Source of the DNA: Syntrophorhabdaceae bacterium
Lineage (GTDB): Bacteria > Desulfobacterota > Syntrophorhabdia > Syntrophorhabdales > Syntrophorhabdaceae
Assembly (NCBI GenBank): GCA_028713955.1
Contig: JAQTNJ010000006.1
Location: 311-42,835, forward strand
Direction: 5' to 3'
DNA: 42,525 bases
Shown here: positions 240 through 25,090 of the stretch, one piece after another
Numbering within the stretch: the stretch's first letter is position 1
Layout: each line of letters opens with the position of its first letter
Notes under the pieces: generated by a model
The model's input: only the letters and a program-made list of their open reading frames with translations
What the model was told of the DNA's origin: nothing
The model's database searches: none
Position numbers and translations under genes: made by a program

Positions 240-524
240 CTACTCAAGGTTCTTGCCGCACTGAGTGCACCTTTTGGGTATCCAGGCAGTCCAAATCCAG
301 ACCGTTGTACCGAATATAGTAAAAGGGTTATACAAAGCCCTCTTACCACATTGTGGACACTTCAAAGAAATAGTGTAGAGTCCAATAATGAGCATCAGAA
401 AGAGCAATGGGATAATGAAATGATTCGATACGTAAACAATTCCAAGTCCTAATGCCAATCCGTTTACGAACCACAGAAAAAGTGCGATATGAAATTTTGT
501 TCTAAGTGTATAGTTTGGCCTCAC
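240..524 (-). CDS. small two-TM protein with paired zinc-ribbon motifs, possible RHS immunity protein
   Basis: The 94-residue product starts with GTG at 522-524, which overlaps the TGA stop of the RHS gene by 4 bp (GTGA), implying translational coupling. Two hydrophobic segments lie at about residues 12-31 and 35-53. They are followed by CPQCGK and CTQCGK, two CxxC knuckles about 30 residues apart that look like a zinc ribbon. Its position directly behind a polymorphic-toxin C-terminus is where cognate immunity genes usually sit, and a membrane location would suit a toxin acting at the envelope. No immunity family is recognised, so the role is inferred from position only. Confidence 0.6.
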   Translation of the reverse strand: MRPNYTLRTKFHIALFLWFVNGLALGLGIVYVSNHFIIPLLFLMLIIGLYTISLKCPQCGKRALYNPFTIFGTTVWIWTAWIPKRCTQCGKNLE

Positions 525-3500: not shown

Positions 3501-6500
3501 ATCATGCCCGCTGCATCGACGGGCTGGCGTACCCCGAGGACCGGCTCCCCATGGCTCGTGGGGTTCACGTATATATCGTAGTTGTGGGTCCAGCCGTATC
3601 CGAGGCTCCTCTTCGAGAGGTTGAGATTGCTGTTGTAGGAACGGGCGAAAGCGAGGCCAAGGGGCGCCCCGCCGCCAAGGGCGAGATCAGTCCTGTCATA
3701 CAGGTAAGCGCCGCTCGCCATATCAACGGGCTCGTTGGACACAGACGGGGTTGCTTGGGTAAGTTGCAGACCTATGGTATCGGGGATTGGGATTGAGATA
3801 AAATTCAGCAAAGATATATTGGCCACCACAAGCGGGTCTACGTATCCCATAATTGAACTGAATCCCCCATAGTAGTTGCCTCCAATGATCATACCCATAT
3901 ATCCTTCAGAAGCAGAAAAATATTTTGAGATGTAGCCTTTTCCCCTCCACTGGTTCAAGACAAGTTGCCCGTTATCGGGGAGGATAAGTATTTTACCGGC
4001 GTTTACCTGGGCCTGAAAATCATCGAGTTCGGCTGTAGTATAGTTTTGCAATTGGGGGCGGACCACGGTGCTGTAATTCGAGCTCGTTGCATAGAAGACC
4101 TTTCTCCCCGTCGCATTTGCGACTTGGAAGAGGCTCATGGTCGATGCTGCGGTCGAACCCATCATTTGAGCAAGTATACCATGTTCCAGGGCGCTGAGCA
4201 CAAGCCCGTGGTTTTTAAAATGGGCAATAGAATCTTCGGTGACAGAGTGTTTTGAAGAGTAACTGGTTCTCTGGGCCTTCACGTCTATGTAATATCCCTG
4301 CTCCTGCGCCATTACGCCGACAGCGTGGTGCGTAACGGCTACAACATCTGATAAGGCTGAGAGCATATTCCGCACCATTGCCGTTTCCTTGAGCCAGGTC
4401 TGGCCCATGATGTTGAGGGTCTCCCCGAGGACCGGCTCCGAAGTATCGGACAGTCCCTGCGCCCTGTATATCTCAAGCTGTTGCTGCCGCTTCTGCAGTA
4501 GTTTGTTCGATACCCCTCCGAAGTTATAGGCAATAGCGTAGCTCCTGCCGCCCTTGACTGTCCAATCAATATTGTAGTCGTCAGCATAATTGCCCTGATC
4601 GTAAGCATAGGGATGATCTATTGAAATATGAAGATGATTGACAGCATCGAGTGTGGTCGCGCGGGCGCTCGATGCCAGTGGCGAACCGCCATCCTGGCGA
4701 AGCTCCGCGTAGTAATTACTGCCGGCTTGGCTGTACGTGAGAGTAATGCGGGAACCGCCAAGCTCAGAGGCTTTAAAGGTGTGGCTGAAGTCCATAGCCG
4801 TATTGTCCTGATTCCAATGCTCTGCAATGATCGTAGTCGTGTACTCTTCAGGAACCGTATCCTGCCAGGACTCTATCTCGTAATACATAAAAAATGATGG
4901 TTCTGTTTGATATGCTGTCAGATTTGTCCGGATGATATTCCTTCCACCGATAATCTCGGTGACTTCTTTATTCGGGTACTGGCTCCTGATGGTAGTGACC
5001 AGGTTGGTAGCATAGGCGGTTAGTTGGTTTCTGATGTTTGTCTCGTTCATGTTCTGGGCATAATCACCGGTCACTGTAGCACCCGATGTGGCGCCTGTCA
5101 TTACAGTACTCCGGCTGTACCCCATGGCCTGGCCGATATCGATCTTTGTAGCATAGCTATATGTTTTGTAAGCAGGATCGAAGGCATAGGTCGTCCCGTT
5201 TATCGTTGCCTTCACCCATACGCGGCCCAGCCAGGTTGATCCATTCCATAAAGGCTGATCAAGAGGAATTCCTCCCAGCGCCAATGTATTGCCTACCGCA
5301 GAATCCGTCGAATCCACTCCCAGCCAGTTGGAAAGGTCCGCCCCCCACATCCATGCCGCCCCGTATACATACCAGGCTGTGTACCCGCTTGCCCTCAGGA
5401 GGGCGATCATCAAGGATGCCTGATCGCAATCGTTACCGCTGCCGTCGAGGTAGGTAAGCGTTGCCCCTTTCAGGGAGCCGAAATAGGGAACGTAGTCGAT
5501 ATTGTTGTGGACGTAGTCATAGATGAGTTTTGGATCATAATGAAGCGCGCGGGCAAGCGCCTGGATCTCCGGGGTGACGTCTTCGACCCCCGAGGACATA
5601 AGCCTTAAGGGGGCAGATGCCTTTTTGGCTGCGATGGCTGCCCGTTTTGCGGCATAATATGCCCGGGCATCCTCAATACTTACTGGTTGCGCAATGGTCA
5701 TACGCCAGCCCGGTCCTGCTACTTTGCTTTCTTGCACCAATGAATCTGTCTGTTTCGTAAGATCCGTTCCCTCTTTTGTCTGGACGGAGGATGTTCCCGA
5801 TGTTTTTTGAGTCGTGTTCGCTGACTGGGAAGACAGGTAGGAACTGAGATTGGCTCCCAAGGTAATACTGAAGGAGGTTAAAGATGAGCCGTCCTGCGAA
5901 CCTGAAACAGTTCCGGTGGGAGACATAAAGTTCCTCGATGTGGTAAGGCCGCCTATGGAGATATTGCCGTTTTCGTCGATGGTGATCGAAGTAACCCTGT
6001 CTTCTCCTGGGCCTCCCAGTAATGAAGAGGAGATCATGCTGAGCAGGTCTGCGTCGAGCTTTGATACAAAAATATCCCCGTTACCTCCGTAGGCGGTATT
6101 ATACACATCCCCTGCAACGGGGAAGTCCGGAGACATTGTGCTGCCTGCAACATAGACATTCCCTGTGTCGTCAACGGCAACGACACTCGCCTGATCCATG
6201 CTGGTGCCGCCGAGGGTCATGAGGGACGTGAGAGTATTGTCGAGTTTTGCAATGAAAGCGTCGGTATTCCCCTCATATCCGGTTGAGGTAAAATTCAAAG
6301 AGGCTGTACTGCCGGCGATGTAGATACTGCCGCCGTTATCGACCTCCACGGCAGGAAGATCCCCGTCAGCGGCATTATACATCGAGAACAGAGACGGGAC
6401 AATGATGAGCTCTTTTGTTGTATCGTATTGTCCCACCTTGAACCCGTACCCATCGCTGAATATCTCGTAGACTGCATCAACATACCTGAGCTCACCGTTC

Positions 6501-7183
6501 ACCTGCTGGTATGCGAGAGGCTTTGAAAATGTGGCAACCCCTGCCTCCGTCTCAATAGCGAGTTCCCCGCTTGCAGTGACAGAGAGTTTTTGCGTACCTT
6601 CTATCCGGATGCTCACGTCCCCGATGCTTGCCTGAGGTTGAACTACGAAAAACTTATTGAGTCCTCCTCCATAAGCCACCAGTTCCAGACTTATGCCATT
6701 GGATATGTCGCCGAAGACTAACCAATCGTATGAGGGGATGCCGCCGGTCCACATTGAAGGGATGTTCCCTATAATCTCAGCGGCCTTCACCGTTGACTTC
6801 TGTCCGCCATTACCAAGAAACGAAGTGACGCCGTTGAAAACCTCGCTGAGCGTAAGTACCCGTACACCATCGCCATCTTTTTTCCGGGAGATGGAGTAGA
6901 GAATCTTCCCGTCCCCAGTGATAAAGAATCCGGCGCCAAATACCCTAGTGTAGTACTTCACATTCCAGTCGCCCAACTGGCCAGTGTTCTCTAGGAAGGG
7001 AACCCGTACCGAATAGAATGCATTAAGGATCTTTTCTTTTGTCTCCTGGGTGAACGTGGCGCTGTGAACCGGTAAACATGCACACAACATGATAATGAAT
7101 GCAGCAACGATTGTGGTCAGAGATCCGAAGTTCTTAAGAAACCCTGCAAAACCGTGTAAACGGTTTGAACCTGTGTGATCCAT
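521..7183 (-). CDS. secreted RHS/YD-repeat protein with SBBP, transglutaminase-like and polymorphic C-terminal regions
   Basis: The product is 2220 residues, and ATG at 7181-7183 follows a good GAAGGAG site. A signal peptide occupies about residues 1-41, ending in VHSA. Residues 273-421 hold SBBP beta-propeller repeats. A transglutaminase-like domain follows (about 540-680) with Cys586 in DCDQASL and Asp669 in FDPAY, but Arg654 stands where the HxW histidine is expected. An RHS N-terminal motif (VDMASGAYLYDRTDL) lies near 1150, and YD repeats run from about 1330 to 1990. The RHS core ends in RFISEDPIGF and DPKGL near 2081. The last 139 residues (524-940) form a Gly-rich variable tip of unknown activity. 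The architecture fits a surface or secreted polymorphic toxin of Gram-negative bacteria. The small gene behind it may give immunity. Confidence 0.9.
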   Translation of the reverse strand: MDHTGSNRLHGFAGFLKNFGSLTTIVAAFIIMLCACLPVHSATFTQETKEKILNAFYSVRVPFLENTGQLGDWNVKYYTRVFGAGFFITGDGKILYSISRKKDGDGVRVLTLSEVFNGVTSFLGNGGQKSTVKAAEIIGNIPSMWTGGIPSYDWLVFGDISNGISLELVAYGGGLNKFFVVQPQASIGDVSIRIEGTQKLSVTASGELAIETEAGVATFSKPLAYQQVNGELRYVDAVYEIFSDGYGFKVGQYDTTKELIIVPSLFSMYNAADGDLPAVEVDNGGSIYIAGSTASLNFTSTGYEGNTDAFIAKLDNTLTSLMTLGGTSMDQASVVAVDDTGNVYVAGSTMSPDFPVAGDVYNTAYGGNGDIFVSKLDADLLSMISSSLLGGPGEDRVTSITIDENGNISIGGLTTSRNFMSPTGTVSGSQDGSSLTSFSITLGANLSSYLSSQSANTTQKTSGTSSVQTKEGTDLTKQTDSLVQESKVAGPGWRMTIAQPVSIEDARAYYAAKRAAIAAKKASAPLRLMSSGVEDVTPEIQALARALHYDPKLIYDYVHNNIDYVPYFGSLKGATLTYLDGSGNDCDQASLMIALLRASGYTAWYVYGAAWMWGADLSNWLGVDSTDSAVGNTLALGGIPLDQPLWNGSTWLGRVWVKATINGTTYAFDPAYKTYSYATKIDIGQAMGYSRSTVMTGATSGATVTGDYAQNMNETNIRNQLTAYATNLVTTIRSQYPNKEVTEIIGGRNIIRTNLTAYQTEPSFFMYYEIESWQDTVPEEYTTTIIAEHWNQDNTAMDFSHTFKASELGGSRITLTYSQAGSNYYAELRQDGGSPLASSARATTLDAVNHLHISIDHPYAYDQGNYADDYNIDWTVKGGRSYAIAYNFGGVSNKLLQKRQQQLEIYRAQGLSDTSEPVLGETLNIMGQTWLKETAMVRNMLSALSDVVAVTHHAVGVMAQEQGYYIDVKAQRTSYSSKHSVTEDSIAHFKNHGLVLSALEHGILAQMMGSTAASTMSLFQVANATGRKVFYATSSNYSTVVRPQLQNYTTAELDDFQAQVNAGKILILPDNGQLVLNQWRGKGYISKYFSASEGYMGMIIGGNYYGGFSSIMGYVDPLVVANISLLNFISIPIPDTIGLQLTQATPSVSNEPVDMASGAYLYDRTDLALGGGAPLGLAFARSYNSNLNLSKRSLGYGWTHNYDIYVNPTSHGEPVLGVRQPVDAAGMIAALYTCLDILKNLDTIEAWMTASLASKWAIDQVIDNAVTVNIGSKVMEYIKLPDGTYAPPPGITTNLVKNGNGTYSLLERMGTQVNFNSDNKVSQIVDIDGNTITFTYTGTSPDTVLSTVTDAFSRTLTFSSSSGRINSVTDSSSPARSVSYGYDANNNLTSYTDPEGKAWSYLYADPTNHRMTGLRNPLNVTMATNAYDALGKVTTQTVPRQSGTNAVYNFYFSGFINSEEDPDGNRITYYYDQKGREYARKDALGNLISKVFDGQDHTVSITDPRAHTTDYLYDGNHNLTRITDALSYQTNNTYESSAPYRLTDTTDPLSHTTSFAYNSHNHLLSTSVYPSQGVTITNSATYYTNGFRNTATDGRSITSTFTYDAYGNPATTYTASHPAITYTYDTIGRMTELKNQLDWPTSFTYDKRGLLLSITDPLSKQTTFAYDNAGRLTAKTDRRNHTISYAYTPTDKIGIVTYPDSSTVSFTYNQLDQVASMTDLIGSTGYSYDAAGRLASMTDPHSFVIGYTYDEAGNLSELTYPGNKTVYYTYDALNRLSTVTIGWITPNPTVTYSYDEAGRMTGFTHFNGSTVTYTYDNANRLTSLVNRKSDQAVIASYSFTLDGAGNRTGIIQTEPDQTLPGMGSSISTYNLQKNRLLSSGGDSFTYDDEGQIATGYGSAYTFDYEHRLTAIGSSSSFSYDGRGNRLEAIRDSVTTRYMYDAQGNLIAEADGNNEITRYYIHGAGLLAMVTPSNQVYSYHFNGTGSTIAMTDAAQAVINQYRYDPFGNIINQSETVSNPFTFVGQYGVMTEPNGFYYMRARYYDPQVGRFISEDPIGFDGGDVNLYGYAGNNPVNRVDPKGLFNILFGGGASVTAPTGFDISGGIVVNPGLFGQKADVGVLGSAGVAGGINVSADAFIGIVRGGIENVRGLTSNFNLTIGPLSLTVFVDPKTGTIMGGTVGIGPAATPAGVSVSFPYTGHITARDIFSPTSTSAQSRGYSK
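524..940 (-). other. variable C-terminal tip of the RHS protein
   Basis: This codes the 139 residues after the conserved DPKGL motif that ends RHS cores. It is Gly/Ala/Val-rich (GVLGSAGVAGGINVSADAF) and beta-strand-like, and resembles no nuclease or deaminase tip that I recognise. By position it is the toxin or effector module. It could instead be a membrane-active or barrel-like segment. Confidence 0.6.
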
Positions 7184-7448
7184 GTCATGCTCCTTCGGGT
7201 TGGAATGACATGGGGAGTACGCACGAAGCTCAGGTGCTGACGATCAAGGCTTACTGTTCACCGGGATTTTTTATGGTGCCCCCACTAACAACAGATTTTG
7301 TTGTTGGAATATCTTCTTTGTATCAAAGGGAAGAATATTTTGTCAAGGGAAATATCGTTCCGGAATGTAGATGGGTATAGACAATAAGGGTACTATATAA
7401 GTTATTATATATTTCGCAAGTCTATTCAGTGTATTGTCATTATAAGGA
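7184..7448. other. RHS upstream region between the array end and the RHS start codon
   Basis: The region is AT-rich and holds no convincing gene. An imperfect hairpin lies at about 7288-7307 (AACAAC and GTTGTT arms). Its left end carries the RHS ribosome binding site (7189-7195 on the minus strand). The last attC of the cassette array ends at 7449, so this marks the array boundary. Confidence 0.6.
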
Positions 7449-7511
7449 CGACAACAAACTTACCGGGAGTGACCCGATAGGGGCACGATCCGGTTCATGC
7501 GGTTGTTATGA
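7449..7511 (-). other. attC site, cassette of the GNAT gene (last in array)
   Basis: The 63-bp site has plus-strand boxes CGACAAC (7449-7455) and GTTATGA (7505-7511). Between them are imperfect inverted arms built on ACCGGGAGTG and CGATCCGGTTCATG. The TAA stop of the acetyltransferase gene lies inside the outer box, as is common in integron cassettes. Confidence 0.8.
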
Positions 7512-8794: not shown

Positions 8795-8860
8795 GCCCAA
8801 CATGATGATAACCGGCGTGGCGCGCTTTTTTGCCACGTCTGGTTCACCTACTGGTTATCT
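8795..8860 (-). other. attC site, cassette of the DUF2971 gene
   Basis: The plus-strand boxes are GCCCAAC (8795-8801) and GTTATCT (8854-8860). Strong arms GGCGTGGCG and GCCACGTC flank a T-rich loop. It closely resembles the attC at 14995-15060. Confidence 0.8.
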
Positions 8861-9700: not shown

Positions 9701-9766
9701 AGATAACACACGCATAACCCGGAGTGGCCCGACAGGGACACGATCGGATTCATGCTGTCGTTAGGC
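9701..9766 (-). other. attC site, cassette of the HEPN gene at 9761-10756
   Basis: The plus-strand boxes are AGATAAC (9701-9707) and GTTAGGC (9760-9766), enclosing arms CCCGGAGTGGCCC and GGGACACGATCGG. The TAA stop of the HEPN gene falls inside GTTAGGC read on the minus strand. Confidence 0.8.
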
Positions 9767-10786: not shown

Positions 10787-12586
10787 GAGCCTGTAGAAAA
10801 ACCCCTTTTTCAAAATGTTCCTCCCCTGTGTTTCCTCATCCGCTGCCTTCGGTCAGGCCGAAGGCGTTCTCTCTCGACCTGTCTCATTACTTCATTTCAG
10901 CAATGAGCACCTCTCCGCTACGGTATTCCGTTTTCTTTGTCTGCCCTTCATGTTTCCTTTTCCTCTTATGCATACCCGTATCCATACCGGTGCACCTTGA
11001 GGAGATTGTGGACCGTACAGTAGAGAAGCCACTGGATGTTCACCTTCTTCTTCCCTCTGATGGTGAATCTATCAAGTCCTAGGGTAGAGCAGATGTTCGC
11101 AAATACCGGCTCTACGGTGACGATCCTTCTGTTATAGATGAGACGACCCGATAACGAGTCGATCTTCTTTTTCATCCTTTCGGCGAAGCTCTTCAATCTT
11201 CCCTCAAAGAAGTAGACCTGTCGTGTCTTCGTACGGTCGGGGTATCTGAGACATTTACTGCGGAGATCACAGAAGGGGCAGTCGGTATCGCGCCCCCTGA
11301 ACTTGACGGCTCTGTTCCCTTTGACCGTCACGCTGCTTCCATTGGGGCGCAGATGTTTGCCGGCAGGACAGGTACAGGTCTTCTTATCCTCGCTTAACGT
11401 GAAGAAGCGGGTGGTGAAGGCAGTGGTGGCGGTTCCGTAGCAGGCGGCATACTCTTTCCTGAAGCGTTCCTTATAGCGGTCTCTTTGGGAGAAGCGGGGA
11501 TCCCTTTTCCTCATCCGGTTGTCTGCGACGTAGGCGTCTATGCCCTCCCGGTCGAGCATCTCCATGTTCTTTTCGGAGTGGAAGCCTGAGTCTGCGGTCA
11601 GGGTGGTTTTCTCGAATATGTTGGCATCGCCGATGGCGGTGAAGTTCTCCTTAGCGCCTTCTATCATGGGTTGAAGCAGGGCCTGTTCCTGGGGTGCGCC
11701 ATAGGCTCCGGCATGGACGATAATCTGGTGCTTTGCGTCTACTACGGCAAGACCGTCACAGCCCTGAACTATACCGTGGGAAGTCTTCATCTTTGCGCTT
11801 TCGTTGTCGGTGATGTTGCTCTTTATGGGCGTGCCTCTTTGACCGGGCCTGTCGTCGTTCTCAGCAAGGAAGGTTCGGATCTTCTTTATGTTCTCCGTGA
11901 GGGTGGTTATGTACTTCTCTTCCTGGGGAGGGAGGTTCTTCTCGTCCGTCTCCTTGTGGCGGGTCATGATCTGCCTTAACGCCTCTTCCATCTTCCCTTT
12001 CTTTTTCTGAAGCTCCGCTTTGGTTCCGCTCCATTCCTTCGAGGCGTTCGAGGGAAGCTTGACGCCGTCTACAGCAAACATCTCCTTGCCGATGAGGTTC
12101 ATCTGATCACAGATAAGGAGGACTTCACAAAAGAGCTTCACAATCTCTGCATCGAGGGTAGAGATAAAATCGGCGATGGTGGTGAAGTGGGGATGGGTGT
12201 CACAGGAAAGGGCCATGAAGATAATGTTCTCTCTGCAACACTGCTCAATCTTCCTGCTTGAGGTGATGCCCCGGGAGTAGGCATAGAGGACGATCTTTAA
12301 AAGAACGGCAGGATCATAAGCAGGGGCCCCGGTTTCATCATTCACGTAGCGGGTATCGAAGGCAGAGAGATCGAGTTCGTGGTCGATGAGGTAATTGAGG
12401 GTATACTCGAAGGTGCCCGGGAGGATCTGTTTGTCGAAGGAGATGGGAATGAACTTACCCTGGTGGTAGTTGTACTCCTTATATCGTGCCATCCATTCCC
12501 CCCTTGATATCAGGCTTTTCGCATCATTTTCTTTAAAGAAATACTACCATGATCGGAGGTATTTTTGGAGCTTTTTCTACAGGCTC
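10787..12586 (-). mobile_element. IS1182-family insertion sequence, 1800 bp
   Basis: The ends are the 15-bp inverted repeats GAGCCTGTAGAAAAA (10787-10801, and its complement ending at 12586). The element is flanked by AAC at 10784-10786 and 12587-12589, read as a 3-bp target duplication. It holds one full-length transposase gene. The insertion interrupts the outer box of an attC and should hinder that cassette's excision. Confidence 0.85.
10966..12492 (-). CDS. IS1182-family transposase
   Basis: The product is 508 residues from ATG at 12490-12492 after AAGGGGGG. The N-terminus (YNYHQGKFIPISFDKQILPG, then AYDPAVLLKIVLYAYSRGI) is typical of the DUF772-type domain of IS1182/IS5-like transposases. 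The centre holds acidic residues of a DDE core (FAVDGVKLPSNASKEW and LTADSGFHSEKN). The C-terminal part has a cysteine cluster (CTCPAGKHLRPNG, CPFCDLRSKC) and a helical LIYNRRIVTVEPVFANIC segment usual for the catalytic Glu region. No frameshift is seen, so the element may be active. Confidence 0.92.
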   Translation of the reverse strand: MARYKEYNYHQGKFIPISFDKQILPGTFEYTLNYLIDHELDLSAFDTRYVNDETGAPAYDPAVLLKIVLYAYSRGITSSRKIEQCCRENIIFMALSCDTHPHFTTIADFISTLDAEIVKLFCEVLLICDQMNLIGKEMFAVDGVKLPSNASKEWSGTKAELQKKKGKMEEALRQIMTRHKETDEKNLPPQEEKYITTLTENIKKIRTFLAENDDRPGQRGTPIKSNITDNESAKMKTSHGIVQGCDGLAVVDAKHQIIVHAGAYGAPQEQALLQPMIEGAKENFTAIGDANIFEKTTLTADSGFHSEKNMEMLDREGIDAYVADNRMRKRDPRFSQRDRYKERFRKEYAACYGTATTAFTTRFFTLSEDKKTCTCPAGKHLRPNGSSVTVKGNRAVKFRGRDTDCPFCDLRSKCLRYPDRTKTRQVYFFEGRLKSFAERMKKKIDSLSGRLIYNRRIVTVEPVFANICSTLGLDRFTIRGKKKVNIQWLLYCTVHNLLKVHRYGYGYA

Positions 12587-12696
12587 AACGCAAAGCTAAG
12601 CCGGAGCGTAAGCGATCGGCTCCAACGTCTGGTTGGGCACTTTTCCTATTATGTTCGGCGCAAGGTACACCGGCCCCTTCTTCACAAAGACTATAC

Positions 12697-13356
12697 TCAT
12701 CTCCTTCTTTGAATGGCGAGATCAACCATTTCCTCTGGTTGAATTGGCGCGTCTTTTACGCCAAGCCATTCAAATAGCATTTTTGCGCAATCCTGTTTTA
12801 TCAAAACGAATATTCGGTGCATGCCTTCATAGGAAACGTGAACTGGCTGATCGACAACGAGCATATCGCTTAGTTTCTTCAAGTCCTTCTGTTTTTCGGA
12901 ACGTATAATGCCCTTTGAATGGAGAATCACATTTCTTAGGATGCGCAGGTCACCCATTATGTCTGACCGTATTTCCTGTAATTCAACACCCTTTGAGGCC
13001 GCCAAACGCGGCCTAATCTCTTCTTCCCAAAACGTGAATAGAAACACTATGACTGCTTGTGAGTGTTGCTGTTCGTTAGAACCCCCTTGAGAATTGGCAG
13101 CTATATAGTCAGTTGCACGAATTATGCGGTTGTGGATCACGTCTGGTTGTGTTGGATCTTCATAGCTGGCATAAACAACCACACGTTGTCCACTGTTATC
13201 AATACGAGAATCTATGGGCCGACTGATTCGGTGAACTTGTCGTTCAATACGCGTGTGGTGTCCTGCAAACCCTGCAAGGGCATCCATGTAAACACCAACT
13301 TGGCGATTCACGAAGTCTATGTATTCACGAATTATGTCGTCGAAGACTTCACTCAC
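12697..13356 (-). CDS. HEPN-like protein of unknown function (integron cassette)
   Basis: The product is 219 residues. The GTG start at 13354-13356 has a GAGAGGA site at normal spacing. The middle reads FWEEEIRPRLAASKGVELQEI, then DLRILRNVILHSKGI. This contains an R-x4-H motif (Arg141 to His146) within a helical region, as in HEPN ribonucleases, and the FWEE-x-IRPRLA lead-in is common in small HEPN proteins. The N-terminal 80 residues are not recognised. Cassette context and the HEPN motif suggest a defence or toxin-like RNase. The gene's attC was split by the IS1182 element. HEPN assignment rests on motif and helix pattern only. Confidence 0.6.
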   Translation of the reverse strand: MSEVFDDIIREYIDFVNRQVGVYMDALAGFAGHHTRIERQVHRISRPIDSRIDNSGQRVVVYASYEDPTQPDVIHNRIIRATDYIAANSQGGSNEQQHSQAVIVFLFTFWEEEIRPRLAASKGVELQEIRSDIMGDLRILRNVILHSKGIIRSEKQKDLKKLSDMLVVDQPVHVSYEGMHRIFVLIKQDCAKMLFEWLGVKDAPIQPEEMVDLAIQRRR

Positions 13357-13411
13357 GGTTTTCCTCTCGAGTGCTTCGTGCTATTTTGTTGTTAAAGGCC
13401 CATCCGGTGCC

Positions 13412-14119
13412 CTATCCTACACCCTGTAGGCCCCTTCTGAGGGCTGCCTTTTGCTCCTTCGCATAGTCCGCATCCACAGCTTTCAGCAGAAGAAGTTCAT
13501 CGTATGTAGCGTCGAACATTTTCAGCAAGTCGTTTCCAGGTCCCATTGGATTGAGGACGCCTCTGTAGATGTGATACTGACCAGATTCCAGCAAATCTCC
13601 AGCGATGTTTCCTATTTGGCTGTAGACCCATTCACGAGGGGTCCGGCCACCGCTTTCTCGAATCATACTAATCAGTGCTTCAGGATTTGAACTAACAGAT
13701 TTCTCGATCATGTGTCTGACCATCTTAAATGCCTCGGTCTGAAATCTATGCCCTGCTTCATCAAGTGCGCTTAATGCCTCCTTTACCTCTTGGGGGACAG
13801 TGGTCTGTTCATTACCCTCAGACAATGAGACTTTTTCTCGCGCTAACCAACGTTCTAACTCGACGAAGTCCTTGAAAGGGGTAGAATGGACTGGCTTTAG
13901 TAAGAAAACCTGCCCCCTTGCGTGAGAAATGCGTACTTCTATTCCGTCGCGCCCCAAGCAGACGTCTTTAAAACCTTCTTCGCTGTTCATTCGTCCAATC
14001 ACGTTCCAGTTCATATTGGCTGCTTGCCGACCTAATGTGTGTGCAGGATGCGTGTATGCTCGCCATAGAAATCTGAGAACAAGAAAAATGGCAACGGCAC
14101 CCAATATCCAGAATATCAT
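13412..14119 (-). CDS. membrane-anchored protein of unknown function (integron cassette)
   Basis: The product is 235 residues from ATG preceded by AAGGAG. One N-terminal transmembrane helix covers about residues 2-20 (FWILGAVAIFLVLRFLW). The remainder is soluble and mostly helical, with no recognised motif. No clear attC lies between its stop (13412) and the next gene (13356). Either its attC is degenerate or it shares a cassette with the HEPN-like gene. Confidence 0.6.
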   Translation of the reverse strand: MIFWILGAVAIFLVLRFLWRAYTHPAHTLGRQAANMNWNVIGRMNSEEGFKDVCLGRDGIEVRISHARGQVFLLKPVHSTPFKDFVELERWLAREKVSLSEGNEQTTVPQEVKEALSALDEAGHRFQTEAFKMVRHMIEKSVSSNPEALISMIRESGGRTPREWVYSQIGNIAGDLLESGQYHIYRGVLNPMGPGNDLLKMFDATYDELLLLKAVDADYAKEQKAALRRGLQGVG

Positions 14120-14142
14120 GGCTATGTCTCCTTATTTTTAAT

Positions 14143-14204
14143 GCCCAACAAAAAGCTCACCGACGCGGGGTTCCTTCCGCGTTCGGTGCAGCGGCTGGTT
14201 CGGT
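14143..14204 (-). other. attC site overlapping the end of the gene at 14157-14969
   Basis: The plus-strand boxes are GCCCAAC (14143-14149) and GTTCGGT (14198-14204), with arms CACCGACGCGG and CCGCGTTCGGTG making a strong hairpin. The 3' end of the upstream gene is translated through most of it. Confidence 0.75.
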
Positions 14205-14994: not shown

Positions 14995-15060
14995 ACCGAA
15001 CGCCATGGTCACCGGCGTGGCGTGCTGTTTTGCCACGTCCGGTGCACCTATTTGTTGGGC
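14995..15060 (-). other. attC site, cassette of the gene at 15111-15776
   Basis: The plus-strand boxes are ACCGAAC (14995-15001) and GTTGGGC (15054-15060). Arms CACCGGCGTGGCG and GCCACGTCCGGTG flank a TGCTGTTT loop. It is close kin of the site at 8795-8860. Confidence 0.85.
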
Positions 15061-15787: not shown

Positions 15788-15850
15788 GCCCAACAAAGGC
15801 GTCAGCGGGAGCCGGGTTTATTGGCGATCCGCTGCACGCGCTCGTTAGCT
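15788..15850 (-). other. attC site overlapping the end of the gene at 15802-16755
   Basis: The plus-strand boxes are GCCCAAC (15788-15794) and GTTAGCT (15844-15850), with arms GCGTCAGCGGGAGCC and GGCGATCCGCTGCACGC. The upstream gene's stop lies inside it. Confidence 0.85.
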
Positions 15851-16783: not shown

Positions 16784-16847
16784 AGCTAACGTGGGCATAA
16801 GCGGGAAGCCCGTTTTTTGGGCGATCCGCTTCATGCCGTTGTTAGCC
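16784..16847 (-). other. attC site, cassette of the CD-NTase/SLATT pair
   Basis: The plus-strand boxes are AGCTAAC (16784-16790) and GTTAGCC (16841-16847). Arms GGCATAAGCGG and CCGCTTCATGCC are separated by a GGGAAGCCCGTTTTTTGGGCGAT region. This is one of the most canonical sites in the array. Confidence 0.88.
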
Positions 16848-17423
16848 TTTCTTTAGTGCTTTCGGAAGGAATGCATCTATTTCCTCATCAGAGAAAGTCA
16901 TGTCCTCAAGTTGCTTTAGGGCTTCCTGCGCTTTTTTGTATGCTTGATAGGTCGTGCTTGGGGCTCCTGAGTAGACCGAATGGAGTTCTTGAAGCAGATC
17001 ATCCCGCTCCTTCTGCAAAGCTTCAATTGGCTTTTCCCCCATCCGTAAGTCAGTTATGAGGGAAAGATACTTCTCCCGAATAATCCACAGGTCGGCACCA
17101 GCTTGCCGGTGCTTCTGGGAAAGCTCACCCATGTCGTAATTCTTTGTATATGCATTAAGAACGAGTAATGCCGTTGATACAAGAACACCGGTCAACGCCC
17201 CGATTTTTCCAGCGCCGAACACGGCGGCAATAAAACCACCCGCCGTAAGCGCCGAGAGGATGATTTGCCATAGCTTGATCCGAGAAAGCCGTGAAAGAAG
17301 GATGTCAGCACATTTCTCGTGCGTTTTGTGTGAATACACAACACGACCGAAGCACTCACGTAGCTGCCCCTCAAGAATCGACCGAGAATCAGCGGTGTCG
17401 TTAGTCTGGGAATGTGGTGCCAA
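16842..17423 (-). CDS. SLATT-domain two-TM effector, partner of the CD-NTase
   Basis: The product is about 193 residues from TTG at 17421-17423, which overlaps the last 23 bp of the nucleotidyltransferase gene. Longer in-frame starts would shadow that gene and are less likely. Two adjacent transmembrane segments (IILSALTAGGFIAAVFGAG, then ALTGVLVSTALLVLNAY) follow an amphipathic HKTHEKCADILLSRLSRIK stretch and precede a helical coiled C-terminus. That is the SLATT layout. SLATT proteins are predicted to form membrane pores when triggered by nucleotide signals from a partnered CD-NTase (SMODS). The overlap with such a gene supports this. The membrane-damage role is inferred from the family. 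Confidence 0.78.
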   Translation of the reverse strand: MAPHSQTNDTADSRSILEGQLRECFGRVVYSHKTHEKCADILLSRLSRIKLWQIILSALTAGGFIAAVFGAGKIGALTGVLVSTALLVLNAYTKNYDMGELSQKHRQAGADLWIIREKYLSLITDLRMGEKPIEALQKERDDLLQELHSVYSGAPSTTYQAYKKAQEALKQLEDMTFSDEEIDAFLPKALKKG

Positions 17424-18282
17424 AGATATCCCTCCATTTCTGTTTCGCTGACCATTCCTGCTTTGGAATAGCCGTTTCATGGGCAATTGCCTCCTTCGCG
17501 ATGTTATAGCAGCGTTTAGCCTTATACTGGAAGAGTCCCTTCCCATAGACGTATTGACCGCTTCCTGGGGCCTTCCAATACTCCTGTTCTGAATTCTGCT
17601 CAGACATCCATTTGAAGAAGTCCCGAGACATGTAATCGTAGTAGAAGTACGACTTGTCTTTATGCTCCCACCCGTCGATGAACTGGTAAGCGAGTGTATC
17701 AATCAGCAGGCCCCCGATAGGAACATCCAATTTACGTTTCCAAGCCCTCGCCATCCGGCATAGGGAAACAAGATTCTTATTGCACGTCGTATTACGGTCT
17801 TTAATTGCTTGGATTTCTGGTTTTGGGTTTGTTACCTGCCAGCTACCACCATTGTTTGCGTTTGGAAAGGTGAAGCTATCATTCTTGTTGACGAACGCGG
17901 GAACAACTTCGAACGCAATCCCATCAGTGAATGGAACCACAATTACTTGGCCGTCTGCACGAATGCTTGTCGTCGAGTATGTCTTCTCGATGGATTTTTT
18001 GACGGCCTGTAACAGAGCGGATTGACCGTTCCCGTTGTAGTTGTTGTACTTCTCGTATTCGGAGTATGGCAACTGAAAAATCATGTCCAAGTCACTGAAC
18101 CCCTGAATGGCAGTATTTCTGCCGTACGAACCGACATACAAACTGTGTGAAGTGTCGGATGCTGTGTTCCAGAAGTCGGTGTTTAGACGTTTGGTTATGT
18201 TTTTGTAACGCTGAGAAATCGTGCCGCCGTCCTGAATTTGAATGTTGGAGCAAAAGGTACTGAACCAGTCTCCGAGTCCCAT
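17401..18282 (-). CDS. CD-NTase (SMODS) second-messenger synthase, CBASS-like
   Basis: The product is 293 residues; ATG is preceded by GGAGGA. The polymerase-beta fold signature is clear: GSYGRNTAIQ near 51-60, then GFSDLDMIF with Asp64 and Asp66, and a third acidic position in FEVVPAF (Glu125). The early ISQRYKNITKRLN helix and the later NKNLVSLCRMARAWK helix fit SMODS-type CD-NTases, which make cyclic oligonucleotides after phage infection. A Glu in place of the third Asp should still allow metal binding. The overlapping SLATT gene is the likely effector, making a minimal two-gene CBASS-like system in one integron cassette. The nucleotide product is unknown. Confidence 0.88.
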   Translation of the reverse strand: MGLGDWFSTFCSNIQIQDGGTISQRYKNITKRLNTDFWNTASDTSHSLYVGSYGRNTAIQGFSDLDMIFQLPYSEYEKYNNYNGNGQSALLQAVKKSIEKTYSTTSIRADGQVIVVPFTDGIAFEVVPAFVNKNDSFTFPNANNGGSWQVTNPKPEIQAIKDRNTTCNKNLVSLCRMARAWKRKLDVPIGGLLIDTLAYQFIDGWEHKDKSYFYYDYMSRDFFKWMSEQNSEQEYWKAPGSGQYVYGKGLFQYKAKRCYNIAKEAIAHETAIPKQEWSAKQKWRDIFGTTFPD

Positions 18283-18295
18283 ATCATTCCTCCAT

Positions 18296-18352
18296 GGCTA
18301 ACAACAGGATGAGCCACGACTGTAAGGAGTTGGCTCCATCCATTTGTTATAT
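18296..18352 (-). other. attC site, cassette of the gene at 18347-19075
   Basis: The plus-strand boxes are GGCTAAC (18296-18302) and GTTATAT (18346-18352). Arms GATGAGCCA and TGGCTCCATC flank a short loop. The upstream gene's TAA is inside the outer box. Confidence 0.82.
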
Positions 18353-19083: not shown

Positions 19084-19146
19084 ATATAACGATTAGCTCA
19101 GCCCGACCCGGTTTTATCGGGGATGGGCTGCAGCGACTTGTTGAAC
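19084..19146 (-). other. attC site next to the IS91-type element
   Basis: The plus-strand boxes are ATATAAC (19084-19090) and GTTGAAC (19140-19146). Arms AGCTCAGCCC and GGGCTGCAGCG surround CGACCCGG/TCGGGG. It is the 3' attC of whatever cassette the IS91-type element now occupies. Confidence 0.82.
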
Positions 19147-20587
19147 TCTCTTTCATTATATCCCTTTATCTCTTCTATGGAAAATATATTCGATATCATC
19201 GGTGAGAGAATCAGATCGGCGGGGCGTACAGGCGTGCATTTTAGAGGTCTTCATTATCTTCGCCGTTATTTTTGTGATCTGATATGGGAGTATGGCGGGT
19301 CGAGAGACAATGTTTCTCCAGGTGAGGACACATAGGGACATAATTTTCCCCCCGTTGTTCATGGTTGTAATGTGGTGATCAGGCTGCACTCTGGATCGCC
19401 TCTTTATTCGTAAAGTGGGGAATCCTGGGAATGTCCATACGTTGTATCAGCCTGGAGCCGCATACAGGACACCTTTCAGGATGGTCATATGTTTTTTTCT
19501 CACAGTAGTTTTGCCAGTCTATGACGTTTGGCTCACTGACTGCTTCCTGGCCGAACAGGTTCCGGCAGCAGTTTAATTCATCTTTTGCCGTGGGCGCATA
19601 TAGCCCGTAATAACGAACTATCTTTGAATAAGGGCAGGGAACATGAAGAAGATATCTTTGTATGAATTGGGTTACTGTAAGCACAATCTTCTCCCGCTTG
19701 GACCTGTCGGAATTCTTATAGGCAAAGGCAACATTTTTTTCATTGAACGAGACGATTCGTCTGTTCGACATGGCGCCGCCTCTGATATACCGGGACAGAT
19801 AAACAAGTATGCCCTGTCCGTGGTCGTATCGTTCCCTTATATGGACATTCCATTTTGTCCTGCCAAGTTTGTTCTTCAGGTTCTTCCATTGCCGTATCGT
19901 CATGGCATCGGGAAGGATTATCAGTCCTCTTTGAACGGCGGCATCCATGCGGGCGAGGAACTTTCCCCGGAATACAGCCATGACTGCTTTGACAGGCAGG
20001 AGATATCCCTTCTGTTTTGTGCTCATCCGCCGGTCACCGGCAAGACCTCCTTCTGTTATGAGGCAATGAATGTGAGGATGGAGGATCATCGTCTGACTCC
20101 ACGTGTGCAGTGTTGCAATAATGCCGGGTTTGCCCCCGATGTGCTTTTTGTCGAGAAAGAACTCATAGAGCGTATCTCTGATGCAGGTAAAAAGAAGATT
20201 TGTCATGGACTTTACGTTCAAAAGCCACAGTTCATTCAGTTCATGGGGGAGAGTGAAGATCATATGGTAATGACCGCAGGCGAGGAGTCTTTCTTTCTGC
20301 CTCTCAAGCCATTGCTCTATCCGGATCCAGTTGCATTGAGGACAGAATCTATGTCTGCATGAGTTGTACCACTGCCTGTGATAATGTCCTTCGGGACATA
20401 CCTGCATATGACCGCCAAGTTCTGCGGTTCGGCATTTCATAATAGCCTGTGCTGCTTTGCGGACATGGAAAGGGAGCTTATGGTTCCGCTCATAACCGTC
20501 AAATGCCCTTTTCATTATCGTTTGTACTGTCACTGACCCATAATTATGATGATACATGTAATTGTATGATATTATTCCATTTATTTA
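19147..20587 (-). mobile_element. IS91-family element lying between two attC sites
   Basis: This unit contains one IS91-type transposase gene plus about 230 bp of non-coding DNA downstream of it (19147-19378), in which no gene is visible. Both sides abut GTTGAAC/GTTCAAC boxes. IS91-family elements are known to insert beside GAAC or CAAG, so the GTTC bordering the transposase 3' side fits. No target duplication is expected. Exact ends are uncertain; it may have inserted into a cassette whose gene is lost, or may move as a cassette. Confidence 0.6.
19379..20557 (-). CDS. IS91-family (HUH, rolling-circle) transposase
   Basis: The product is 392 residues. An N-terminal zinc-binding domain shows CPEGHYH, then CRHRFCPQCNWIR (about 75-83). 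The HUH metal site is LHPHIHCLIT near 157-166, and a candidate catalytic tyrosine lies in YLSRYIRGG near 255. A second cysteine pair, CPVCGSR, lies near the C-terminus. These enzymes cut one strand and replicate by a rolling-circle mechanism from the element's origin. The length is near the family norm and no frameshift is seen. It is inserted within the cassette array in the same orientation as the cassette genes. Confidence 0.92.
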   Translation of the reverse strand: MYHHNYGSVTVQTIMKRAFDGYERNHKLPFHVRKAAQAIMKCRTAELGGHMQVCPEGHYHRQWYNSCRHRFCPQCNWIRIEQWLERQKERLLACGHYHMIFTLPHELNELWLLNVKSMTNLLFTCIRDTLYEFFLDKKHIGGKPGIIATLHTWSQTMILHPHIHCLITEGGLAGDRRMSTKQKGYLLPVKAVMAVFRGKFLARMDAAVQRGLIILPDAMTIRQWKNLKNKLGRTKWNVHIRERYDHGQGILVYLSRYIRGGAMSNRRIVSFNEKNVAFAYKNSDRSKREKIVLTVTQFIQRYLLHVPCPYSKIVRYYGLYAPTAKDELNCCRNLFGQEAVSEPNVIDWQNYCEKKTYDHPERCPVCGSRLIQRMDIPRIPHFTNKEAIQSAA

Positions 20588-20653
20588 GTTCAACGCAAAG
20601 GTAAGCGGGAGTAACCCGACAGGGCTACGATCCGCTTCACCGCCTTGGTAGGC
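20588..20653 (-). other. attC site, cassette of the Hsp70-substrate-domain fusion gene
   Basis: The plus-strand boxes are GTTCAAC (20588-20594) and GGTAGGC (20647-20653), the latter a one-base variant of GTTAGGC. Arms AAGGTAAGCGGGAGTAACCCG and GGCTACGATCCGCTTCACC are similar to the sites at 7449 and 9701. Confidence 0.78.
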
Positions 20654-20670: not shown

Positions 20671-21945
20671 TCACGGAACAGAACTCATGACCTGACGGAT
20701 GGTCCTAACGAGCTTATCCTCAAGCTCCTTCATCCCCCTTGGTGTAAACTCATAGACGAGGCATCTCAACGATTTCAAGTCAAATGGAACATCGTCCATT
20801 GATTGAGTGATGAGTATTACTTCTTTTCCTAAAGCGTGAGAAAGCCCGACTTCATAAAATACATTAGGGTTCTTACCTGTCAGGTCGGCCACAATAAACC
20901 TAGTACGGTTCAATTTTTCCCAAATATCATAAGTTATTAGATTTGTCCCAAATATCTCATCTGCTCTCTGGCAGGATACTCCTTCTGATTCAACGAGTGG
21001 CTTGATGTGGTCCGTATAAATCGGATCCATCGCCTTCAAAAAGGGCATAAGAACAAAACAGAGATTGGGGTCGGGTGTGAAGTTGCAGCCGCCAAATATC
21101 TTTCCTATATCATGTCTAAGAGGGCCTACCGATGGACTGCCTTCCGCAGCCGCTCGTTGTGTGGGTTTTTGCTTTGATGATTCGGAAGGCGTTTCGTAAC
21201 TGCGTCTGGATGTTTGTGGACGCCTTTTTGTTTGCGTTTCGAAAACGTCGCCGAAAATATCTCCGAAGTTTCCGAAATCAAAAGGGTTGGAACTTGTAAG
21301 GACATTCTTCAGCTTACTAGATTGAGCTCGGATTTGATCCAAATTGTTGCTTTGCAACGCAAGGCCAAGGTCTGCCACTGCCTGATCTATTGCCTTGCAA
21401 TCGTATATCTTGATCTTATCTTTATCTCTCAGAATTCCTTCAGCTTGGTGGATGAGATTCTGTGCTTCATTGTGCTGTTCTTTGATCCTTAGCGCGACTT
21501 GATCTTCGTCTCTACTTCTTTCAGCGTCTTGCAGTATCTCTTTGATCAGTTTTTCATCTAAATTTATGGAGGTCTGGTCGGCATGGATGGATATTCTTCG
21601 CATGGATTGCTGTTCTATTGCCTCGCCTTCGATTGAGATATCCTGCGCTACTTCTATGCTTAAGGTTATTTGGGGCTGGCCTTTTGGGCCGCCAGGTAGG
21701 TCGGTGAGGTGTAGCCGTGATATTTCCAAATTCTTCTGGGCAATGGGCCGCTCACCGATATATATTTTGATTTCAACACTCTTTTGGTCATCCTCCGCGG
21801 TTGTGAAGATTTGGTGTCTCTTTGCTGGTAAAGGCGTGCCCCGCAAAACCACAGGAGTGAAGATACCCCCAACTGTCTCGATCCCAATCGATAGTGGAAG
21901 AATCTTGAATTTCCTTCTCTCTTCACTTTCTTCTTTATCAACCAT
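20671..21945 (-). CDS. fusion of Hsp70 substrate-binding domain, DnaJ-like G/F segment and NDT/TIR-like domain (integron cassette)
   Basis: The product is 424 residues. Residues 13-125 match the DnaK substrate-binding beta domain (LPLSIGIETVGG, IFTTAEDDQKSVEI, GQPQITLSIEV), and 126-235 match its helical lid (LDEKLIKEILQDAERSRDED). No ATPase domain is present. A linker follows with FGNFGDIFGDVF, like the G/F region with DIF motif of DnaJ proteins. From about 292 a nucleoside-deoxyribosyltransferase/TIR-like domain begins: FVLMPF, RADEIFG, VADLTGKNPNVFYEVGLSHA (Glu365) and VPFDLKSLRCLVYE. That domain is common in NAD- or nucleotide-cleaving defence effectors. A sensing-by-chaperone role is inferred. 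The cassette holds this single gene. Confidence 0.85.
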   Translation of the reverse strand: MVDKEESEERRKFKILPLSIGIETVGGIFTPVVLRGTPLPAKRHQIFTTAEDDQKSVEIKIYIGERPIAQKNLEISRLHLTDLPGGPKGQPQITLSIEVAQDISIEGEAIEQQSMRRISIHADQTSINLDEKLIKEILQDAERSRDEDQVALRIKEQHNEAQNLIHQAEGILRDKDKIKIYDCKAIDQAVADLGLALQSNNLDQIRAQSSKLKNVLTSSNPFDFGNFGDIFGDVFETQTKRRPQTSRRSYETPSESSKQKPTQRAAAEGSPSVGPLRHDIGKIFGGCNFTPDPNLCFVLMPFLKAMDPIYTDHIKPLVESEGVSCQRADEIFGTNLITYDIWEKLNRTRFIVADLTGKNPNVFYEVGLSHALGKEVILITQSMDDVPFDLKSLRCLVYEFTPRGMKELEDKLVRTIRQVMSSVP

Positions 21946-22001: not shown

Positions 22002-22069
22002 GCCTACCACGGGCGTCACCGGGAGGCAAGCGCCGTTTCTTGCCGATCCGGTGCACGCACTCGTTATCG
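22002..22069 (-). other. attC site, cassette of the HNH gene
   Basis: The plus-strand boxes are GCCTACC (22002-22008, a one-base variant of GCCTAAC) and GTTATCG (22063-22069). Arms GGGCGTCACCGG and CCGGTGCACGC enclose GGCAAGCGCCGTTTCTTGCC. The HNH gene's TAA lies in the outer box. Confidence 0.82.
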
Positions 22070-23244: not shown

Positions 23245-23251
23245 CGATAAC
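23245..23251 (-). other. candidate attI core box (integron insertion point)
   Basis: On the minus strand this reads GTTATCG, matching the outer box of the adjacent attC at 22063. It lies 21 bp upstream of the first cassette start and is followed on the other side by AT-rich DNA without cassette features. The integrase remnant diverges from here. It is the best candidate for the attI junction. Confidence 0.55.
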
Positions 23252-23281
23252 AATAAATATACCAACTTGTTATTTACAATT

Positions 23282-23308
23282 ATTATACCAGTGTTCGATA
23301 AAAGGCAA
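23282..23308 (-). promoter_or_regulatory. candidate cassette promoter (Pc)
   Basis: On the minus strand, TTGCCT (23303-23308) is followed after 15 bases by TATAAT (23282-23287), preceded by TGG, an extended -10. The short spacer is compensated by the extended element. It points into the cassette array, 58 bp before the HNH start codon. Confidence 0.5.
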
Positions 23309-23409
23309 TATAAAAATAACTATCAAATATTTAAGCATTATTCTTGCTGGGACTATCTATCTAAATGGTTTTTATTGATATTACGGACTAAAAAGGAATA
23401 TACTCTTTT

Positions 23410-23640
23410 ATGGAAAAGAGTGAAGGAACGGCAAGGGAACCACTTTTGCCTGAATTCCAGGAGTTCCTGCGGGTTAACAGGCTTGCCCCTGAGAACCACA
23501 TACCCTATCTCGCCTTATAGATAAGCAGGTTCCTTGCCTTTTTAAATAAGAGCGAGAGCAGGGACGCCGCTTTCGTTACTGTTGATTTCATAGATACGCT
23601 AAGGGCCGATAAGAACATCACTGACTGGCAGGTGCGTCCC
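23410..23640 (+). pseudogene. truncated integron integrase (intI) remnant
   Basis: From ATG at 23410 the frame reads a tyrosine-recombinase N-terminal SAM-like domain: EFQEFLRVNRLAPENHIPYL, then ISRFLAFLNKSES, FIDTLRADKNITDWQVR. That last pattern (W-Q-V/I-R near the end of the first domain) is typical of integron-type integrases. A TAG at codon 37 (23518-23520) breaks the frame, and similarity ends at about 23636, with no catalytic domain found downstream. It diverges from the cassette array with the candidate attI between, the normal integron layout. The array is therefore probably not mobilised by its own integrase unless one is supplied in trans. Confidence 0.7.
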
Positions 23641-25090
23641 ATTGAAGACAAATCCTCATGGCCATGCTCGCTATGGCGCCCTCCACGAAGCTCATTGCAT
23701 GAACTGGCGTTCATTTCATGAAGCTCGTTCCGGGCTTCTTAGCTTCGCAGATTTATCAGTACCACTGCTTCAGCGCCGGTTCAGCTTTTACCTTGTCCAG
23801 CAGCGTCGGACTCCAAAAGCTTTCACCGCCGCATTCCATCAGGATCTTCCACGACGGACGTGTCACGGAGATCCCGTGCAAACCCCAAGGGCAAACCTCA
23901 AAGGTAAAACCTCAAAGGCAAACCTCAGGTTATCAAGCCCGCAAGGGGCCTCATGCCGGATAGGGGGAATGACCTCATGACGGGTGATTTTTTTCCCTTC
24001 ACCGGCGTATGGGCACAGCTATGGCACTGCATCGGGGTGAATCTCTGTCGTTAGTTGCGCCACGAACTCGTCAGGTGAGCTTTACCTCCACTGCCTCTGA
24101 AATAAGACATTCCACCGTGGACCGAGGAATGTTAGCAGGGATGCCGGGACTGGGCATCCAAGACATGCAGGGCCTTGTAAATCCCTGTAATGACGCTGGA
24201 TAGGAGGCACTACCCTGCCTTACAGGAACCACTGCATGTCGGGTGTGGAACAATAAATTCGTCGATCTACTAAGACTGTCTCTACTATAGTATTACCATC
24301 TTTTTCTGAAGATTGAGGGAGTGACGCGCAGATTTTTCAGGCGTGTCACTTTCCGTATGGAGGAACCCGCCATTCTACCGGTAGAGCAAATAAATACCCT
24401 TTCTATATGGCATGATCTTTTTTCCCCGGAGGCAATACCTATGGCAGAGCCTCCTTTTTGGTATCCCCGGACTACGGGGTTGCCCGTCCGGTAAAGCCCA
24501 TCTGCGGGGTAAAACAATGAGAGCCCGGCAAGCCTTTTCGCGGCTGTAGACTCCTTGAGTCACCGCGACCAGAAAGCGGCCCCCTTCTCTTTGGGAGTCC
24601 GGGGCTGCAACAGCCGCGCCAATATTTTCTTAAATTGCCCATGAAGGACAGAAAGAGCGAAGGGCAGGGGTGTCCGCAGGGCAAAAAGCATCCGTTTCCG
24701 CGTGATAACGCATACCAAGCGCACTGGCCGTTTTCCCTTTTCCCAGGGATTGTGTGGGGAAACCAGGGGAGATCGTGGGGATCTATGGGGAAACATGCTG
24801 AAAAACGTTTTTTTTACTTGTTTCTGCTCTTCCATGTGTCAGGCGCTAAAGCCCTTACTTGACTTTCCGTGCCTGTATGTATCGTTTCTTTGCACGTAAA
24901 ATTACATGTGTCACGCGTTATACTGCCCCAACTTAACATTATTTGCATTTTGTTGACTATTTTTGTTTTGCCTTGTCAAGGAAGTAATACCTGTTTAGTG
25001 AAAAAGGCGCGAATCGACCTGCAAGGATGCTCTTAAAGGGCAAAAAAGCCCTATTTAGGGGTAAAAACGCCCCATGTAAGGGCAGGGTTT
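23641..25090. other. long region without a recognisable gene
   Basis: About 1.45 kb lies between the integrase remnant and the segregation genes, and no frame in it has convincing coding features. A run of short repeats built on CAAACCTCAAAGG lies at about 23889-23930. A hairpin-rich GC stretch occurs at 24480-24620, and the repeated TGGGGAAAC at 24754-24800 could be iterons. It may contain decayed integrase DNA, a replication origin or unknown RNA; none can be shown. Confidence 0.5.
25000..25083 (+). repeat. candidate parC iterons upstream of the ParR-like gene
   Basis: Imperfect repeats of about 21 bp built on AAAAANGCCC...AGGG occur in tandem, clearest at 25042-25061 and 25062-25083. Arrays of this kind directly before a ParR gene often form the centromere bound by ParR and the promoter controlling the operon. 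The match is by eye and imperfect. Confidence 0.45.

Follow-up and report, generated by a model that had tools for sequence, protein, structure and literature searches.

The usual picture of an integron is one integrase, one attI site and one cassette array. The locus described here raises the question of what becomes of attI and array once the integrase gene beside them is dead, and whether they are then frozen or rely on an integrase supplied from another place. It lies in a stretch of 42,525 nucleotides (the window) from a Syntrophorhabdaceae bacterium (GenBank assembly GCA_028713955.1, contig JAQTNJ010000006.1, positions 311 to 42,835 of the forward strand). Its sequence matches would place the genome near Nitrospirota. 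The local integrase is dead, the attI site, the array and the family of leader sequences are real, and recombination at the cassette cores is recent relative to species divergence. We consider it likely that this is a degraded integron, in which a long-type integrase gene (intI) has died and an attI leader and an array of 12 attC sites have been kept, and that it is one of seven leader loci without a working integrase that were served in trans. Judged from the sequences compared below, the integrase (IntI) that served the site is probably now lost or unassembled.

What remains of the integrase gene

Next to the array, and starting opposite to the cassettes as the first-pass annotation had stated (the array is on the - strand), lies the following remnant:

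23410-23640 (+): intI pseudogene, in which 77 codons of a long IntI remain, all from its N-terminal extension, from sequence and homology to IntI proteins

The remnant starts with ATG at 23410 and, as read in the window, has a TAG at 23518-23520, which is codon 37. Reading through this codon gives 77 residues ending in ...ITDWQVRP, and homology to IntI reaches about 23637-23649 before ending abruptly. A protein search with this joined frame, the check proposed in the first-pass annotation, returned long integron integrases. The remnant aligns with residues ~1-85 of IntI proteins of ~435 amino acids (best identities 43-46%, E ~1e-16 to 1e-18). Its relatives occur at 11 loci in public genomes (37-55% identity), several of them metagenome-assembled genomes of Nitrospirae or Omnitrophota. 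The closest full-length relative found is a 439-residue protein of genome G024, from the same family (43% identity over 76 residues, E = 8e-18).

All six relatives that were tested are integron integrases according to TIGR02249, with 346-429 bits against a curated cut-off of 265, and in these the model match begins only at residue ~114-136. Because of this late start, the remnant corresponds to the extra N-terminal extension upstream of the TIGR02249 domain, and the integrase domain is wholly gone. What survives of the long IntI is thus its extension, and the SAM-like core-binding domain is not part of it. This sharpens the earlier description of an integrase-like N-terminal piece with a TAG at codon 37 and no catalytic half, which otherwise stands. 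The functional intI, with integrase domain and IntI-specific insertion, that defines a complete integron is absent from the window, as is the catalytic integrase domain of a long IntI. No second IntI piece was convincing elsewhere in the window, so that neither a catalytic half nor an intact intI lies to the right, and the DNA right of the break (23600-24560) has no match elsewhere in this genome.

A genuine attI junction

Between remnant and cassettes, the first-pass annotation had pointed to a GTTATCG box, which we locate at 23251-23245 on the - strand. The features at this point are:

23245-23251 (-): core GTTATCG of the junction between attI and cassette 1, the exact complement of the attC1 R'' box CGATAAC
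23249-23269 (-): core-proximal attI motif CAAGTTGGTATATTTATTGTT, 21 bp, common to seven leaders of this genome
CAAGTTGGTATATT: attI, putative recombination site

Since a cassette begins with the half that its own attC lacks, the core at its start and the R'' box at its end must be complementary, and this offers a simple test of an attI junction that needs sequence alone. We applied it to 41 cassettes of six arrays, independently of the covariance model described below and with 20,000 shuffles as the null. Complementarity was exact in 31 of the 41 junctions (shuffles: mean 2.1, maximum 9 in 20,000), including 10 of the 12 cassettes in the window. The attI junctions of the window contig (C6) and of contigs C52, C54 and C98 have a 7/7 core match to the R'' box of attC. 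The C16 leader also matches exactly and the C48 leader closely; no attC was found behind the C110 leader. Beyond this genome, a core that exactly complements the first R'' box adjoins the leader in G006 (C47, C137 and C258), G014 (C124) and G024 (C71). As GTTATCG is the exact complement of CGATAAC in attC1, it is the true core of an attI site adjacent to the first cassette and no chance box. The 21-bp motif occurs once in the window (expected 0.00), and in relatives with an intact long intI a closely similar TATTAAnTGTT closes the stretch that separates the gene from its array.

A covariance model found 12 attC sites in the window, all on the - strand, a count that is partly by construction because 11 of the 12 went into the model, which was built from window sites. 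The same model found ~22 further attC on C52, C54 and C98. A strict RYYYAAC...GTTRRRY pairing had been tried as attC finder and was dropped in favour of the model, as it found almost no attC owing to the variable cores. The sites, found by the covariance model and examined by the core test, are:

22002-22069 (-): attC1
20588-20653 (-): attC2, of a cassette whose unusual core, GGTAGGC, has its match in the cassette's own R'' box
19084-19146 (-): attC3
18296-18352 (-): attC4
16784-16847 (-): attC5
15788-15850 (-): attC6
14995-15060 (-): attC7
14143-14204 (-): attC8
12583-12638 (-): attC9
9701-9766 (-): attC10
8795-8860 (-): attC11
7446-7511 (-): attC12, the array end

The array thus has the single orientation and the cassette genes of a complete integron. 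It also has what defines a CALIN (a cluster of attC sites lacking an integron integrase), namely at least two attC without a functional intI nearby.

A leader repeated without its integrase

The sequence between cassette 1 and the intI start codon is a dispersed repeat in the genus, with these parts:

23245-23409 (-): attI leader, ~165 bp, from motif search and alignment
23361-23409 (+): leader block A, with the former integrase promoter TTGATA-18-TATACT (23375-23404) and the palindrome-like GATATTAC, from alignment
23282-23290 (-): extended -10 TGGTATAAT, candidate cassette promoter (Pc), from consensus match only

The leader therefore holds a divergent pair of promoter-like sites, TTGATA-18-TATACT on the + strand and the extended -10 on the - strand. 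The latter had already been noted in the first-pass annotation and is retained as a candidate; its -10 region is conserved in other leaders. A search for the 21-bp end motif that allowed up to 2 mismatches found 7 occurrences in this genome and 10 in the congener G006, compared to 0 in both for the reversed control. In most of the copies here, homology spans the full ~160 bp.

In an alignment of 15 full leader copies, conservation begins at the column of the intI start codon, left of which it is only 0.3-0.5 bits. It peaks in two stretches, one with the former integrase promoter (1.2-1.7 bits), the other with the candidate cassette promoter and the attI end (1.1-1.7 bits), and the first of these is conserved even in copies without intI. 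An IntI remnant stands beside the leader only in the window copy and in one copy of the congener G005; a working intI stands beside none of the seven copies here, nor beside any in G006.

Three further observations concern repeats. Five genomes of another family (f32; loci L171, in G344:C55, and L172-L175) have one copy each of the 21-bp motif, in one of them beside a C-terminal IntI part. One array of G006 (L131, C258) contains a complete leader and two shorter ones, homologous over 34 and 47 bp, at 11919, 9591 and 7153 on the - strand. At ~12630-12770 of locus L088 lies an intergenic sequence of ~100 bp, with more than 30 copies in this genome and many in congeners.

Recent cassette movement

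Five of the seven leader copies share flanks and leader with a locus of a congener (C52 with G004, C54 with G005, C98 with G001, C48 with G006:C92 and C110 with G006:C170). This comparison covers the loci retrieved, from draft and metagenome-assembled genomes, and the pairwise identities given here are those of blastn segments. At C48 and G006:C92 the homology extends left of the leader, with an integrase-less junction in both, so that the lack of intI beside this leader predates the divergence of the two species.

The arrays differ between species, and a DNA search with the whole array found few cassettes in common with relatives, yet for some cassettes the similarity is too great for an old age. 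The window holds one of them:

13259-14155 (-): cassette segment 99.0% identical to one in the C52 array, with homology starting at the GTTGGGC core

A cassette shared by C54 and G006:C258 has 95.8% identity, compared to 84-90% for the backbone, and is preceded by a shortened attI leader in G006:C258 and by an attC in C54. A third, older pair joins window positions 8801-8109 to G006 (80.5% identity). Homology in all three pairs starts at the GTT core or a few bases from it, which, together with the differing upstream contexts, is the signature of IntI-type recombination. By these identities, the C54/G006:C258 cassette has recombined after the species diverged. That the array may be frozen, as the first-pass annotation had proposed, is consequently not the best reading, since the 99% (C6/C52) and 95.8% (C54/G006) cassettes start at the GTT core.

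Separately, 298 bp of an integrase-less G003 array (L141, 5241-5538) are 94% identical to part of an array on G024:C31 (L095, 8318-8022), which lies next to an intact long intI in another genus. This match suggests cassette flow between the two.

Where an intact integrase was sought

The other half of that proposal, reliance on an integrase encoded at another place in the cell, fits better; the second intact intI to be looked for was found neither in this genome nor in six congeners. No protein of the genome reaches the TIGR02249 cut-off of 265 bits, and a long-IntI query found only the window remnant and generic tyrosine recombinases. The best of these, on C271, was considered as the missing IntI and rejected (67.9 bits, far below the cut-off, with the match split between model positions 181 and 242). 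Among the congeners, G003 has an 87-residue C-terminal IntI piece (C36:11298-11558, L178), 76% identical to the G024 integrase and without a full gene, which makes it a third congener with an IntI relic, and G005 a shortened piece with internal losses. Intact IntI is present elsewhere in the family. The source is thus either lost, unassembled or on a mobile element.

We propose the following course of events. The long-type integrase of this locus was destroyed by the stop codon and by loss past codon ~76, leaving attI, the leader with its candidate cassette promoter and former integrase promoter, and the 12-attC array. An IntI acting in trans has probably inserted and exchanged cassettes at many leaders, and would have come from an ancestral locus or a mobile element now decayed, lost or unassembled. 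The leaders may have been kept for the expression of the first cassettes, which they may drive to this day, and for renewed use by any IntI that reaches the cell. The conservation of the promoter block might reflect a role beyond the transcription of intI.

Weighing the explanations

Several points weigh against a degraded integron served in trans. The 99% duplicate could stem from strain mixing in a draft assembly of 371 contigs. An element missed in assembly or binning could carry an intact intI. At most loci, intI could have been lost species by species after the last cassette movements: only C48/G006:C92 has an integrase-less junction that predates the split, and the recent movements are at other loci.

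The strongest competitor, to which we give slightly less than an even chance, is an ordinary degraded integron, a CALIN with a pseudogene, in which every intI copy decayed on its own and not long ago, leaving arrays that are now no more than frozen relics. The IntI relics in G005 and G003 fit such plain decay. It agrees less well with the older integrase-less junction of C48/G006:C92, with the several shared loci that have a leader without intact intI, with the cassettes that moved after the split, and with a former promoter block that is still conserved.

Two further readings are possible and we hold them rather doubtful, to a similar degree. The first is that the cell has an intact integrase, on a plasmid, a conjugative element or in a contig gap, that is absent from the draft assembly. 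The 371 contigs amount to 96% completeness, and right of the dead intI lie TraG- and TraH-like conjugation genes and a ParM-like actin, from which the array is probably on a conjugative element, so that mobile DNA is present. Against this, none of 7 congeneric genomes of 92-99% completeness has an intact IntI, and neither the leader motif in viral contigs nor the leader DNA in plasmid records gave a match. The second, wider and equally tentative, is a distributed integron system throughout the genus, in which chromosomal attI-promoter leaders with their own arrays would be inherited without integrase and use a rare or transient IntI in trans. The conserved promoter block would then have its own role, for example in accessory IntI binding or in regulation of the cassette promoter.

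It is very improbable that the leader is a promoter or operator repeat unrelated to attI and placed by the arrays incidentally. It does hold promoter-like and palindrome-like elements (ATACCAAGTTGGTAT in some copies), but the adjoining core exactly complements the first R'' box at ten leaders of four genomes, and relatives have the same end sequence between their intact long intI genes and their arrays; on these two grounds we rejected it. Least credible of all is a phage or Xer-type origin of the 23410 fragment, of which the first-pass annotation had named the phage type as what would overturn its reading: the fragment alone matches no Pfam or NCBIfam model, as expected for an extension that falls outside them, no other support was found, the six tested homologues are all TIGR02249 proteins, and attC sites adjoin it.

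The first two of these readings, plain decay and an integrase missing from the assembly, overlap with the one that we prefer, an integron degraded locally and served in trans, so that the likelihoods given here do not add up to one.

Further cassettes and neighbouring genes

One cassette carries a defence pair resembling a cyclic oligonucleotide-based antiphage signalling system (CBASS):

16842-18282 (-): SMODS nucleotide cyclase (17401-18282) with a SLATT_4/two-transmembrane effector (16842-17702)

The cassette protein at 20671-21945 (-) combines an Hsp70-like part with a C-terminal stretch that matches a PADLOC TIR effector model (E 4e-11). At 19379-20557 (-), an IS91-type (Y2) transposase gene lies within a cassette that shows an exact match of start core and R'' box (GTTGAAC), as though the gene moved as a cassette. 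An IS1182-like DDE transposase lies within the array at 10966-12492 (-), where the core test fails (5/7 at attC10), consistent with disruption. Directly past the far end of the array, at 521-7183 (-), is a gene for a 2220-residue RHS-repeat protein.

Relation to known integrons

A clade of IntI with ~120 extra residues acquired by gene fusion (clade 15) was reported by Nemergut et al. in 2008 (PMC2426708), who also found that nearly one third of intI genes are pseudogenes. The remnant belongs to an extension of about that size class, comparable in length and as an addition to the protein, and its full-length relatives have ~400-460 residues; the window differs in keeping the extension alone.

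CALINs, named so in IntegronFinder (PMC9024848), have been proposed as degraded integrons and, in the passages cited, are said to be mobilisable in trans (PMC12444791). Our locus resembles them in having an attC array without functional intI. It differs in retaining a recognisable attI leader and a remnant of intI next to the array, and in that several arrays of this genome each have their own attI. The integrons of Xanthomonas and Shewanella (PMC12444791, PMC9229058) have likewise lost their integrase repeatedly and have several arrays without one in the same genome; in the passages cited, those arrays are described as attC clusters, with no mention of repeated attI leaders. The shortened attI copies (34 and 47 bp) in the G006 C258 array recall the delta-attI cassettes of mobile integrons (PMC12901181), and differ from these by occurring in a non-clinical genus without intact intI.

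Limited phrase searches found no published description of attI leaders that recur without an integrase. Integrons in decay and CALINs dispersed over a genome are well known, and what is new here is the variant with repeated, integrase-less attI leaders. If such leaders persist and continue to exchange cassettes at many loci without a neighbouring integrase, integrase-less arrays would not be merely dead ends, and tools that score intI and attC alone would overlook a layer of the system.
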